From the IMG/VR virus record IMGVR_UViG_3300024346_008609, positions 1 to 41,277 of that record: 41,277 nucleotides of DNA. One strand, 5' to 3'. How positions within the stretch are numbered: the first letter of the stretch is position 1; each line of letters starts with the position of its first letter. Position numbers and translations under genes: made by a program. The DNA is from a virus. Below the pieces are notes generated by a model, which was not told the origin of the DNA, did no database searches, and saw nothing but the letters and a program-made list of their open reading frames with translations. Positions 2,250 through 8,098 of the stretch are shown one piece after another.

Positions 2250-3032
2250 ATGAAAATATATTTTGTTACATCTTGTAAACCAAATCATGATGAAAAAGTA
2301 AAAACCAGGCAGGTAAATGCTATCAAAAGTTGGAAATGGCTTAATTGCGATAAGGAAATTTTTGTATTTAATAAAAACCCTCAAATTACTGAAATGTGCG
2401 AGGAGTTGGGAGTGACCTTAATTAATGAGTATGAATCCTCAGATAAGTCAGATTTACCCACATGGAGAGCCATGAGAGATTATGCTGCCGAATTAGCTGG
2501 TGATGATGAATATATTATTTGGGTTAATTCAGATATTATTTTTGACGAATCATTACTGAACACCCTGAAGTCTATAGAATCACAAAATTTAAAAAATTTC
2601 ATATTAACCGGTAAACGAATGCCGTGGGATGATTACTACGATTTAAACGATAAGGATATGTTGAAAGATATTCCATTTAAAAATACAGGCGATGTTTGGG
2701 AAATAGACTACTTCGTATTTAAAAAAATTCACTTTTTAAATACCCCAAAATTTTATATTGCGAGAATGAGATTTGATAACTATCTCATGCAAAGAGCAAT
2801 TCATACAGAAGAATTTACCATTGATTGTACACAAACTATAAATGCAATACATCATACTCACGGATATGGAAACGATTCAAAATTAATATGGCATGAATAT
2901 GTTAGTAATAACGGAAACGTAAAAGAAGAAGTTGATGAAAATCAAAGAAGTTGTGGCCACGGTGGAAATATCGAACAATGTAGGTATATAACTAAAAATG
3001 AAGACAACACAATAAAAGTAATAAAAAAATAA
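2250..3032 (+). CDS. GT-A type glycosyltransferase (family uncertain)
   Basis: 260 residues. It starts MKIYFVTSCKPN, typical of the first strand of GT-A-like nucleotide-sugar transferases, and has IIWVNSDIIFD (residues 89-99), where NSDIIFD resembles a DxD-like metal/nucleotide-sugar site. A later segment with W-x-x-DYFVF (near residue 150) and CTQTINAIHHTHGYG (near 200) fits an acceptor/His-containing loop seen in some uncharacterised transferases. The gene starts 15 bp after the methyltransferase stop, so both are likely co-transcribed. Donor and acceptor are unknown. Confidence 0.5.
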   Translation: MKIYFVTSCKPNHDEKVKTRQVNAIKSWKWLNCDKEIFVFNKNPQITEMCEELGVTLINEYESSDKSDLPTWRAMRDYAAELAGDDEYIIWVNSDIIFDESLLNTLKSIESQNLKNFILTGKRMPWDDYYDLNDKDMLKDIPFKNTGDVWEIDYFVFKKIHFLNTPKFYIARMRFDNYLMQRAIHTEEFTIDCTQTINAIHHTHGYGNDSKLIWHEYVSNNGNVKEEVDENQRSCGHGGNIEQCRYITKNEDNTIKVIKK

Positions 3033-3038
3033 TTTATT

Positions 3039-4121
3039 ATGAATAAAAAAATTTCAATTATTGGAGTTGGTAAGTTGGGTTTATGTTTATCATTGAATTT
3101 AGAAAGAATAGGGTATGAGGTAATTGGTGTAGACATATCTCAAGATTATATTGAGTCACTATCCAATAAAACTTTTGAATCCTCTGAGCCCTTTGTAAAC
3201 GATTATTTAAAGGAATCTAAAAACATTTTATTTACTACTGATTTAAAAAAATCTTTAGAAAGTGATATTATATTTTTAGTAGTTAGTACACCATCAACAA
3301 ATGACTTTAAGTACGACCACGGCGCCATTGAAAGAGTCGTTGAGGGTCTTAAAGAATTTGGTGTTCAGGACAAAAGAAAAGAATTAGTAATTAATTGCAC
3401 AACTTTTCCTGGTTATTGTGATGACCTACAAAATCGTATTAACGAATATAATTACAAAGTCTCTTACAATCCTGAGTTTATTGCTCAGGGGTCAATTATT
3501 ATGGACCAAGTAAATGCCGATAATGCATTAATTGGTGAGTATGATGAAGTATCAGGTGATGTTATTGAGAAAATCTACCGTGAACTATGTAACAATAACA
3601 TTACAATTAACCGAATGTCACCGATTGAGGCCGAATTAACTAAACTTTCAGTTAATTGTTTTTTAACTACTAAAATTAGTTATGCAAACATGATAGGGGA
3701 CATTTGTAATCGTTATGGTGCAAACCCAAATAAAGTATTATCTGCAATTGGAACCGACAGTAGAATTGGTTCAAAATATTTGAATTACGGTTTTGGATTT
3801 GGTGGACCATGTTTTCCAAGAGATAATCGAGCATTGGCGAAATGTGCGGAAGAAGTTAACATCGACGCAGTAATATCAAAATCAACTGACGAAATGAACA
3901 AACTTCACTTAAAATACCAAGTTGAAGATTTTTTTACCTCACACCCTGATAAGAATAACCCCGTTGAAATTGATTATGTAACATACAAAAAAGAGAGTAC
4001 ATCAATCGAAGAATCTCAACAATTAAAATATGCGATAGAACTATCAAATTTAGGATACAAAGTAAAAATTAAAGACTTAAGACCTGAGGTAATTAATCAA
4101 ATAAAAAACATACTAAAATAA
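3039..4121 (+). CDS. UDP-glucose/GDP-mannose 6-dehydrogenase family
   Basis: 360 residues. Members oxidise a nucleotide sugar (usually UDP-glucose or GDP-mannose) to its uronate with two NAD+. Visible hallmarks are the Rossmann loop GVGKLG (9-14) after an I-I strand, VSTP near 82, YNPEF near 143-147, the conserved EAELTKLSVN region (198-207) and the catalytic cysteine C258 within GFGFGGPCFPRD (251-262). The C-terminal UDP-binding domain is short (about 60 residues after a linker), so the protein is shorter than the usual 400-450 aa. It overlaps the next gene as TAATG. The adjacent NAD synthetase domain may feed its cofactor demand (inference). Confidence 0.85.
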   Translation: MNKKISIIGVGKLGLCLSLNLERIGYEVIGVDISQDYIESLSNKTFESSEPFVNDYLKESKNILFTTDLKKSLESDIIFLVVSTPSTNDFKYDHGAIERVVEGLKEFGVQDKRKELVINCTTFPGYCDDLQNRINEYNYKVSYNPEFIAQGSIIMDQVNADNALIGEYDEVSGDVIEKIYRELCNNNITINRMSPIEAELTKLSVNCFLTTKISYANMIGDICNRYGANPNKVLSAIGTDSRIGSKYLNYGFGFGGPCFPRDNRALAKCAEEVNIDAVISKSTDEMNKLHLKYQVEDFFTSHPDKNNPVEIDYVTYKKESTSIEESQQLKYAIELSNLGYKVKIKDLRPEVINQIKNILK

Positions 4122-5674
4122 TGTTACATCAAGAAATAATTGATTGGATAAAAACATATAGTGTTAACAATAACAATTTAAAATTAGTTGTTGGTGTGTC
4201 AGGTGGTGTTGACTCCGCATTAGTTTCAACATTATGTGCAATGACCGGTATTGAGACACATGTAGTATCAATGCCGATACATCAAAAAGAAGAACAACTC
4301 ACACTAGCTAAAACACATATTGAATGGTTGAAAAGTACCTTTGAGAATGTGTACTCTCACGAACATGATTTGACTGAGTCATTCGAAAATTACAAATTAA
4401 ATTTAATGTTCTATGACGATAAATTAGGTTGGGCTAACACAAGAAGTAGATTCAGAATGGTAACACTTTATCTCATTGCGAATTTTGTAAAAGGTATTGT
4501 AGTTGGTACAGGGAATAAAATTGAAGATTTTGGGGTTGGATTTTTTACAAAATATGGTGATGGCGGAGTTGATATTTCCCCAATCGCAGATTTAACAAAA
4601 ACAGAAGTTAGAGAAATGGCAAAAAAATTAGGTGTTAGTGAAAGTATTGTTAGTGCAAAACCAACCGATGGATTATGGGAAGACGATAGAACTGATGAGG
4701 ACCAAATAGGTGCGTCTTACGAAGAATTGGAATGGGCTATGGAGTACCTTCAGGATTTAGATGATAGAAAAAAAAAGGTTTTAGAAATTTATAAAAAATT
4801 TAACGAACAAAATACACATAAAATGAACGCAATCCCCGTGTTCAAAAAAAACAAAAATGAAGAAACGGTATTAAATAAAAAGGGAATCTATTTGTTTCAA
4901 GAATTATTTAAAGAAAAAAATCCTGAAAGAGAGAATGAGTATCTTTTTTGTATAAATAAAAATTTATCAAACCCTATCGTCAATAAAATATTTTATGTAT
5001 TGAATGAAGATGAATATAATGAAAACAAAGAATATTTTGACGGACTAAAATCTACACATTTTGTTAGCCCACATAAAGTTGAATTTATAATATCTAAACA
5101 AAAAAGATTCACATTCAATCAGATGGTTGACTTTAGTAAGATTTATGTAGAAGAAAATAGAATTGTTTTGGTTACAAACTTAGACGTGTTTATACCTGAA
5201 AGTGAAGATTGGGAAAATATATATGATGATTTTTTTATGTCGACAGATAAGTCAGTTTGTTTAGCACTTTCACGTACAGAATACTCAGACGAAAAAACTC
5301 AGTGGATAGATAAAATAGCCTGGGGAAATGGTGAATTTGCAGATGCGTGGGGTTTTTTATCACCATTAAAAATTAAATCAGAAACTTTCCCATTTCAAAT
5401 ACCTGTGGGTAATGCACCTTCATGTGATAACTATATGTTTTTATTATTGGGTATGGCTTACGAACACGTATTTAATTGGGCCGATAAATATAAAATATAT
5501 CACTACGACATCTGTAGAAAACCTGAAGTGGTTAGTACACAAAGAAGTAAAATGGTCCAAAATGATAGTAGTGTAACTTTATCTAAAGATTACTTACATA
5601 GTTTTGAATCTTCAAAATATATGATAAAAGCCCATGATGATTGGCAAACACTTTTTAATACTATAAAAAAATGA
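4121..5674 (+). CDS. NH3-dependent NAD synthetase-like domain fused to a putative glycosyltransferase domain
   Basis: 517 residues in two parts. Residues 1 to about 240 match NadE: the PP-loop SGGVDS (27-32), NTRSRFRMVTLYLIAN (106-121), VVGTGNKIEDFGVGFFTKYG (127-146), and KPTDGLWEDDRTDEDQIGASY (180-200), which is the conserved end of the active site. NadE amidates deamido-NAD with ammonia and ATP. Residues about 275-517 look like another enzyme: VTNLDVFI (351-358) resembles the NxDI site of GT-A-like transferases, followed by DAWGFLSP and CDNYMFLLLG. No glutaminase domain is present. The fusion is unusual. It overlaps its neighbours (TAATG and ATGA). NadE part secure; C-terminal role inferred. 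Confidence 0.75.
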   Translation: MLHQEIIDWIKTYSVNNNNLKLVVGVSGGVDSALVSTLCAMTGIETHVVSMPIHQKEEQLTLAKTHIEWLKSTFENVYSHEHDLTESFENYKLNLMFYDDKLGWANTRSRFRMVTLYLIANFVKGIVVGTGNKIEDFGVGFFTKYGDGGVDISPIADLTKTEVREMAKKLGVSESIVSAKPTDGLWEDDRTDEDQIGASYEELEWAMEYLQDLDDRKKKVLEIYKKFNEQNTHKMNAIPVFKKNKNEETVLNKKGIYLFQELFKEKNPERENEYLFCINKNLSNPIVNKIFYVLNEDEYNENKEYFDGLKSTHFVSPHKVEFIISKQKRFTFNQMVDFSKIYVEENRIVLVTNLDVFIPESEDWENIYDDFFMSTDKSVCLALSRTEYSDEKTQWIDKIAWGNGEFADAWGFLSPLKIKSETFPFQIPVGNAPSCDNYMFLLLGMAYEHVFNWADKYKIYHYDICRKPEVVSTQRSKMVQNDSSVTLSKDYLHSFESSKYMIKAHDDWQTLFNTIKK

Positions 5675-6279
5675 ACAAAGGAGCACTAGAAGATAGATAC
5701 GCTAAGATTGAAATTACAAAATTAATTGAGGAATTTTCTATCAAAAGAATTATTGAAACTGGAACATATAAAGGTTGGAGTACAAAAGAATTTGCAACAT
5801 TATGTGATAATATTGACACTATTGAAATTAACTTAGAGTATATTGAGGACGCTTATGAATTTTTAAAAGATGTTAAAAATGTAAAAATACACAATGGTTC
5901 AAGCCCTGAAGTTATGAAAAATATTATTTCAAATGGTGAAAAAGACTTACTTATTTTTTTAGATGCGCATTGGGAAAACTATTGGCCGGTCAAAGATGAA
6001 TTAAATACTTTGATTGAAAAGGATGTACGACCAATTATTTGTATTCACGACTTCTTTGTACCTGGTGGAAATATTTTTGTTGATAAGTATGGTAAACGCA
6101 TACGGTCAAACGACGGTTCAAAATTTGGATATGACCAGTATAACGGAGTTGCTTTGGATTTAAATTATATAACAGAAGAACTTAATAAACTATACCCTGA
6201 AGGGTTTGATTATCACTACTCAAGTCAAGTTAGTGAGGTTGACTCGGGTTTAATATTTATATACCCAAAAAAAACATGA
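5671..6279 (+). CDS. Class I SAM-dependent methyltransferase-like protein
   Basis: 202 residues. Motif I is IIETGTYKGWST (27-38), then IDTIEINLEYIEDAYEFL for the acidic strand 2 and IFLDAHWENYW for strand 4; ICIHDFFVPGG fits the strand 5 loop. This arrangement recalls Methyltransf_24 and cephalosporin-hydroxylase-like proteins. It may modify a sugar in the glycan cluster; the acceptor is unknown. Its start overlaps the upstream stop as ATGA and its stop overlaps the next start as ATGA, so three genes here are translationally coupled. Confidence 0.6.
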   Translation: MNKGALEDRYAKIEITKLIEEFSIKRIIETGTYKGWSTKEFATLCDNIDTIEINLEYIEDAYEFLKDVKNVKIHNGSSPEVMKNIISNGEKDLLIFLDAHWENYWPVKDELNTLIEKDVRPIICIHDFFVPGGNIFVDKYGKRIRSNDGSKFGYDQYNGVALDLNYITEELNKLYPEGFDYHYSSQVSEVDSGLIFIYPKKT

Positions 6280-6961: not shown

Positions 6962-8098
6962 ATGAAAAAAATTGTAGTTCTCGGTGGTGGTGGATTTATT
7001 GGGGGTCACCTCGCAAAAAGATTAAAAAATGATGGGAATTGGGTAAGAGTTTGTGATTTAAAACGACACGAGTATTTTACTCAAGATGAATTTTGTAATG
7101 AATTTATTGTGGGTGATTTAAGAGACCCAAATGTAGTTTCATTAGTTATTGACGATTCAATAGATGAGGTCTATCAATTAGCCGCAGATATGGGTGGTGC
7201 AGGTTACATTTTTACAGGTGATAATGACGCCAATGTAATGCATAACTCATCATTGATTAATCTTAACGTAGTTCATGAATGTGTAAAAAAGAAAGTTGGT
7301 AAAGTGTTTTATTCATCATCGGCATGTATGTATCCTGAACATAACCAATTAGACCCAAATAACCCAAATTGTGAAGAATCTTCAGCATATCCCGCAAATC
7401 CAGACTCAGAATATGGATGGGAAAAATTGTTTTCAGAACGATTGTTTTTAGCCTTTAATAGAAACTATGGTTTGAATGTTAGAATCGCTAGATTCCATAA
7501 CATTTTTGGTCCTCAGGGAACTTGGGAAGGTGGTAAAGAAAAATCACCCGCAGCTATGTGTAGAAAGGCTGCTGAGGTAAATGATTGGGATAAAATTCCA
7601 AATCAGGTAAGACCCACATATGAATTAGAGGTTTGGGGTGACGGACAACAAACACGTTCATTCTTATACGTTGATGAATGTGTTGAGGCAGTATTAAGAC
7701 TAATGGAGAGTGATTTTACAGGTCCTGTTAATATTGGTTCTGAAGAAATGGTAACTATTAATGAATTGGCTCAGTTAGCAATTGATTTATCAGAAAAAGA
7801 TATAAAAATTAAAAACATCGAAGGTACAGAATTTAAAACAAAGTATGGATTTACTTGTCCTGTAGGTGTTAGAGGTAGAAATTCAGACAATAAACTTTAC
7901 AAAGAAAAAGTTGGTTGGGAATCTAAATTTACCTTGAAAGAGGGTATGGAAAAAACATACAAATGGATTAATGAACAAGTTCAAAAAAAAAGAAATGAAC
8001 AGGTTTATATCTATGAAAGTCCCGACAAGGGCAAAACAGTATATCGCAGAGAGTTCATGGATACTAAAACACGTGAACTTGTAACTGATAATTCTTAA
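6962..8098 (+). CDS. GDP-mannose 3,5-epimerase-like (extended SDR)
   Basis: 378 residues. It fits GME, which converts GDP-D-mannose to GDP-L-galactose and GDP-L-gulose. Seen: NAD loop GGGGFIGG (8-15), AADMGGAGYI (75-84), SSSACMYPEH with Cys122 at the position of the plant catalytic cysteine, YGWEK (151-155, catalytic Tyr/Lys), RFHNIFGPQGTWEGGKEKSP (177-196), WGDGQQTRSF and VGVRGRNSDN. The similarity to the plant enzyme as I remember it extends along the whole length. A tail of about 35 residues after the catalytic domain contains YESPDKGKTVYRREF, which the plant enzyme lacks. GDP-L-galactose for glycan synthesis is the likely purpose. Confidence 0.88.
   Translation: MKKIVVLGGGGFIGGHLAKRLKNDGNWVRVCDLKRHEYFTQDEFCNEFIVGDLRDPNVVSLVIDDSIDEVYQLAADMGGAGYIFTGDNDANVMHNSSLINLNVVHECVKKKVGKVFYSSSACMYPEHNQLDPNNPNCEESSAYPANPDSEYGWEKLFSERLFLAFNRNYGLNVRIARFHNIFGPQGTWEGGKEKSPAAMCRKAAEVNDWDKIPNQVRPTYELEVWGDGQQTRSFLYVDECVEAVLRLMESDFTGPVNIGSEEMVTINELAQLAIDLSEKDIKIKNIEGTEFKTKYGFTCPVGVRGRNSDNKLYKEKVGWESKFTLKEGMEKTYKWINEQVQKKRNEQVYIYESPDKGKTVYRREFMDTKTRELVTDNS

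Follow-up and report, generated by a model that had tools for sequence, protein, structure and literature searches.

An NAD synthetase domain joined to a GT-A glycosyltransferase-like domain in a phage gene among sugar genes

The fusion gene and its neighbours

In this work, we have analysed a virus fragment of 41,277 bases (the window), in which the phage head, portal and terminase genes lie on the strand opposite to the genes described here. The frame at 4121-5674 on the + strand is open from its ATG to its stop and codes for 517 aa; it is a real gene, and it belongs to the phage. The A of its ATG is also the last base of the preceding gene's stop codon, and its 3' end overlaps the ATG of the gene at 5671, so that it is part of a densely packed stretch of sugar genes. 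The features are as follows:

792-1586, + strand: GT47/exostosin-like glycosyltransferase, a gene by itself, related to the domain that precedes NadE in the fusions of contigs L296 and L325 (profile match to 8q8i, 8avq and 8asa)
3039-4121, + strand: nucleotide-sugar dehydrogenase, UDP-glucose dehydrogenase type (PF03721, PF00984; TIGR03026 over cut-off, 238.9 bits)
4121-5674, + strand: NadE–glycosyltransferase fusion gene, a single open frame of 517 aa
4121-4855, + strand: NadE domain, ammonia-dependent NAD synthetase (residues 1-245; PF02540, TIGR00552; cellular invariants kept)
4844-4891, + strand: junction and linker, opening with an A8 run (4844-4851) and stopping before a possible TTG start (4892)
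4886-5515, + strand: GT-A glycosyltransferase-like domain (residues ~256-465; family alignment with 22 invariant columns, fold of the family member L039)
5516-5671, + strand: C-terminal tail (residues ~466-517), present in L033 too and missing from the short family members; low model confidence
5671-6279, + strand: methyltransferase-like protein (PF01596, E 4e-5, barely over cut-off), with the same position directly after NadE in contigs L293 and L327
6276-6923, + strand: FkbM-type methyltransferase (PF05050, E 2e-13)
6962-8098, + strand: NAD-dependent nucleotide-sugar epimerase/dehydratase (PF01370, E 1e-41; phrog_540)

The sequence-only reading of this DNA had described a NadE fused to a GT-A-type transferase beside a nucleotide-sugar dehydrogenase, and the domain matches, the family alignment and the TIGR03026 score agree with that description.

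The two domains of the protein

Residues 1-242 match NAD synthetase along the entire domain and are of the ammonia-type NadE (Pfam NAD_synthase, PF02540, E 5e-47, residues 4-237; TIGR00552 at 178.5 bits, where the cut-off is 63.65, covering model positions 6-244 of 251; PDB NadE chains with E values as low as 1e-32). The complete motifs that had been read in the N-terminal ~240 residues are all four present, namely SGGVDS (27-32), GTGNKIED (129-136), FTKYGDGGVD (142-151) and HK (233-234). Every position that is at least 97% invariant among 80 cellular NadEs is kept in the fusion. G25, the S27-S32 loop, R110, T130, E135, K144, D151, K160, T182, H233 and K234, which we take to be the ATP, Mg and NaAD sites by UniProt annotation, show 100% conservation among viral and cellular NadEs alike, a conservation that within the stretches RTDEDQ, MPIHQK, TGNKxED, GFxTKYG and HKM is partly the product of selection, because patterns inside these stretches were used to fetch some of the loci; none of the patterns covers R110, D151, K160 or T182. 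Identity to the 80 nearest cellular relatives, mostly of Bacteroidota and marine archaea, is 52–59%. In each of the eight Flavobacteria genomes that were tested, no other NadE than the relative scores over the cut-off, and the relative is therefore the housekeeping enzyme. The NadE proteins of Bacteroidota and of phages P-TIM68, HTVC008M and S-SSM7 share with the fusion the synthetase domain, the near-invariant residues and the HKMxxIP C-terminus. Judged by its residues, the domain is most likely a working ammonia-dependent NAD synthetase.

In the two-domain NAD synthetases known so far, the additional domain is a glutaminase (nitrilase-like; PMC3376133). The fusion resembles them in being a multi-domain protein built on a NadE synthetase core. 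In the glutaminase type, however, the extra domain, of another fold, supplies ammonia, whereas the chain described here holds only the NadE match and the C-terminal GT-A-like domain, and the glutaminase domain is absent from it.

The C-terminal domain (residues ~256-465) has no credible match in Pfam, PHROGs or NCBIfam and is not a known NadE extension, and a PDB sequence search with it gave nothing significant. The domain belongs to a viral family. In an alignment of 28 sequences (the fusion domain and 27 relatives) there are 22 invariant columns, all kept in the fusion, which include N353, D355, R385, D408, W410, C435-D436-N437 and H461. The NxDV site (N353-L-D355-V356) and the CDN element noticed earlier are thus both present, with N, D and CDN invariant against the 27 relatives; the NxD pair differs from the canonical DxD. 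These columns, with the NxD, ALSR, D..W and CDN elements, are common to an unnamed viral GT-A family to which S-SKS1 gp36 and BFVD entries of Cedratvirus and pithovirus belong, the latter named glycosyltransferase or nucleotide-diphospho-sugar transferase. The S-SKS1 copy (gene SWZG_00036) is standalone, 27% identical and adjoins a nucleotide-sugar epimerase. The closest relative, 45% identical, is the middle domain of a 606-aa HAD–GT-A–FkbM methyltransferase protein in a related phage (L033:7638-9458). A scan with these two copies retrieved 48 viral loci of the family, while a scan of eight Flavobacteria genomes, run without a positive control, found no member. The relatives occur by themselves or in fusions with HAD, methyltransferase or other domains; the copy described here, in contrast, is joined to NadE, and both its insertion and its tail are longer. 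This is a GT-A family without a catalogue entry, which viruses use in fusions.

The fold was approached through a standalone family member, L039, whose model is confident (pLDDT 91.5, pTM 0.90) and resembles chondroitin synthase, B4GalT1 and GlcAT-P in the PDB (best E 8e-6, TMq 0.5–0.6) and the glycosyltransferases of Cedratvirus (E 2e-20) and a pithovirus (E 5e-17). The model of the fusion's own C-terminal domain, for which the sequence-only reading had proposed a structure prediction (residues 250-517), is weak (pLDDT 59.5), with GT-A enzymes and nucleotidyltransferases as best matches. By its predicted fold the C-terminal domain is a GT-A glycosyltransferase, and it would be expected to transfer a sugar. 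The gene at 2250-3032 has no family match, and its NSDIIFDE motif resembles the NxD site of this family. We considered it as a further relative and rejected it, as the 39 columns that align, at a probability of 61%, are not enough.

Phage NadE genes, sugar genes and recurrent fusions

A nucleotide-sugar dehydrogenase lies within 3 kb and on the same strand in 115 of the 147 viral NadE loci, against none of the 79 cellular loci. The order dehydrogenase then NadE is common to L169, L180, L227, L294, L299 and L302, among others, and in L293 the two genes overlap. The NadE genes of phages P-TIM68 and HTVC008M also adjoin such a dehydrogenase, as the fusion gene does, whereas the cellular homologues fetched neither lie beside one nor carry a C-terminal extension. 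In snow viruses, nadE and UDP-glucose dehydrogenase are both listed, with no link drawn between them, among the abundant genes (PMC11097641), and for such glycosyltransferase-rich regions in pelagimyophages it has been proposed that they change the O-chain of the host and thereby prevent coinfection (PMC7029224).

The sequence-only reading had regarded the fusion as unusual and had asked whether it recurs. The exact architecture was not found elsewhere in the viral contigs, which were searched with the whole protein, its C-terminal half, family alignments and motif patterns; none of 149 distinct other viral NadE frames has a C-terminal extension, and among these contigs only L033 has the close C-terminal subfamily. 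However, NadE–glycosyltransferase fusions of other kinds do recur in related phages: in three contigs NadE is fused behind an unrelated N-terminal glycosyltransferase (GT47-like in two, GT2-like in one), each followed by a nucleotide-sugar dehydrogenase-like gene:

L296, 3041-4792: GT47-like–NadE fusion
L325, 2193-3926: GT47-like–NadE fusion
L347, 3293-4729: GT2-like–NadE fusion

These proteins share with the product of 4121-5674 a NadE and a glycosyltransferase in one chain, with the dehydrogenase gene after or beside them; they differ in that their glycosyltransferases are N-terminal and of unrelated families. In L296 and L325 a domain of ~320 aa is joined to NadE, and its profile matches exostosin GT47-type structures (8q8i, 8avq, 8asa; E 3e-40). 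Since these two proteins share 48% identity over their full length, the GT47-like–NadE fusion is old and has been maintained. The frame in L347 (478 aa) joins NadE to a GT2 domain (PF00535; scanned alone, the domain scores 25.7 bits, the cut-off being 23.3). How such fusions can form is shown by L295 and the 642-kb phage LR756502, where a GT47-like gene and NadE are separate neighbours. LR756502 had looked like a complete GT47–NadE fusion by tblastn, an impression that its ORFs, two separate adjacent genes, do not bear out. At L369:3034-4987 in this genome (LR756502.1), two tandem GT47-like genes directly precede NadE and a nucleotide-sugar dehydrogenase.

The order dehydrogenase–NadE–methyltransferase is found in L293 and L327, where the transferase is absent and NadE directly adjoins the methyltransferase gene. 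Because these loci are otherwise syntenic with ours, the glycosyltransferase was probably added at the 3' end of NadE. Both domains are of known kinds; neither a NadE–glycosyltransferase fusion nor a linkage of NadE to the dehydrogenase or to glycan genes was found described in the literature searched.

Possible roles of the fusion protein

We propose, with slightly better than even confidence, that 4121-5674 codes for a bifunctional NAD synthetase/glycosyltransferase, a genuine fusion within a tailed-phage surface-glycan cassette. The proposal builds on what the analysis shows: the domain identities, their conservation, the synteny and the recurrence of NadE–glycosyltransferase fusions. The NadE domain would use ATP to adenylate NaAD at its nicotinate carboxylate, and NAD+ would then be released by ammonia; the upstream gene product (3039-4121) would oxidise a nucleotide sugar with NAD+, and the GT-A domain would move a sugar from a nucleotide-sugar donor by means of its NxD metal/nucleotide site. 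NadE may thereby keep NAD+ available for the dehydrogenase and the NAD-dependent epimerase while the glycan is built or modified. The fusion, formed when the glycosyltransferase gene came in frame at the 3' end of NadE, would secure co-expression and co-location, not the passing of an intermediate between the two sites. A nucleotide-sugar dehydrogenase reduces NAD+ and does not consume it, so a role in NAD supply accounts only loosely for the linkage to this enzyme, and it offers no compelling ground for fusing NadE to glycosyltransferases. We also count against the bifunctional reading that its exact architecture is seen in one contig, that an A8 run marks the junction and that the model of its own C-terminal domain is weak.

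The genetics would fit well with another role, in which NadE now serves to amidate a uronic acid: the adjacent dehydrogenase would make a nucleotide-hexuronate, NadE would adenylate and amidate it to a uronamide, and the fused glycosyltransferase would transfer the product. The dehydrogenase linkage seen in viral and not in cellular loci, the gene order dehydrogenase–NadE–GT and the fusion of NadE to three unrelated glycosyltransferase types all favour it; uronamides occur in bacterial O-antigens (a paper on galacturonamide and the Francisella capsule is PMC2897883), and the structure of an LPS sugar amidotransferase, NASAT, has been solved (PMC10607449). If true, uronate amidation would give the NAD synthetase fold a biochemical function that is new for it. 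However, the active-site and NaAD-site positions are fully conserved, and the comparison for changed NaAD-site residues found no cellular invariant altered in the fusion's NadE, which also lacks the F137Y and S153A shifts of most dehydrogenase-linked phage NadEs; its nearest cellular relatives, where tested, are sole housekeeping enzymes at the identity given above. Because the NaAD site is unchanged, we consider amidation less likely than NAD synthesis, and as an explanation of this gene unlikely; the wider claim, that NadE in such phage cassettes makes amidated sugars from the dehydrogenase's nucleotide-hexuronate for delivery by the fused glycosyltransferase, is a shade more doubtful still. 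A role in counter-defence had also been suggested; on this reading the phage NadE would restore NAD+ depleted by host defences, and we add that the fusion would then be neutral, having come about by accident among closely packed genes. The sequence of NadE is that of an intact enzyme, genes in this fragment overlap by a few bases, which eases accidental fusion, and the rebuilding of NAD+ by phages is an active topic, as in a preprint on RyR-domain proteins fuelling NAD+ synthesis. Our results lend this role no support: NadE alone uses NaAD, which comes from the host, and has no route to NAD+ from nicotinamide or ADP-ribose; no partner gene for salvage (NAMPT, NMNAT, NadR or similar) was recognised among the ORFs scanned on the 41-kb fragment; and the linkage of NadE is with sugar dehydrogenases, in a neighbourhood of sugar metabolism. 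With no means of starting from the breakdown products and no partner seen, it is the weakest of the readings and highly improbable.

The A8 run at 4844-4851, which coincides with the usual NadE end, leaves room for a frameshift despite the single open frame. With one A fewer NadE would end in IPVFKKTKMKKRY and a stop, with one more in IPVFKKKQK and a stop, and relatives end alike (IPIFKKTK in L180); the TTG at 4892, with AAGGGA upstream, could then start the transferase, and the exact architecture is found in this contig only. Against two genes separated by a one-base error stand the ATG starts of all 14 genes checked on the fragment, the position of the TTG, a start at which would cost the transferase domain the beginning of its conserved first strand, and the fact that the domain's sole upstream start codons lie within NadE. 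In addition, NadE–glycosyltransferase fusions with no A run at the junction exist (L296, L347), and L033 carries the same GT domain in a fusion. We regard such an artefact as quite improbable.

The A8 run is read in frame as AAA AAA AAC, which contains the heptamer A AAA AAC, where slippage like that of dnaX would set NadE free by itself. We considered programmed frameshifting at this site and rejected it, there being no supporting stem-loop; a slippage of this kind may occur but has no support.

The usual label for phage nadE genes is that of auxiliary metabolic genes that boost NAD. Their linkage to the dehydrogenase and their recurrent fusion with glycosyltransferases of unrelated types assign many of them to glycan synthesis instead, and raise the question of whether phage NadE supplies NAD+ for sugar oxidation or amidates sugar acids. 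Phage NadEs that lack a neighbouring dehydrogenase lie in other settings, for example with radical-SAM and phosphoribosyltransferase genes, a chaperonin or AAA_28. They form a second set (L183, L188, L214, L241 and L174), of which some sit by genes of these kinds and perhaps serve NAD or cofactor pathways.
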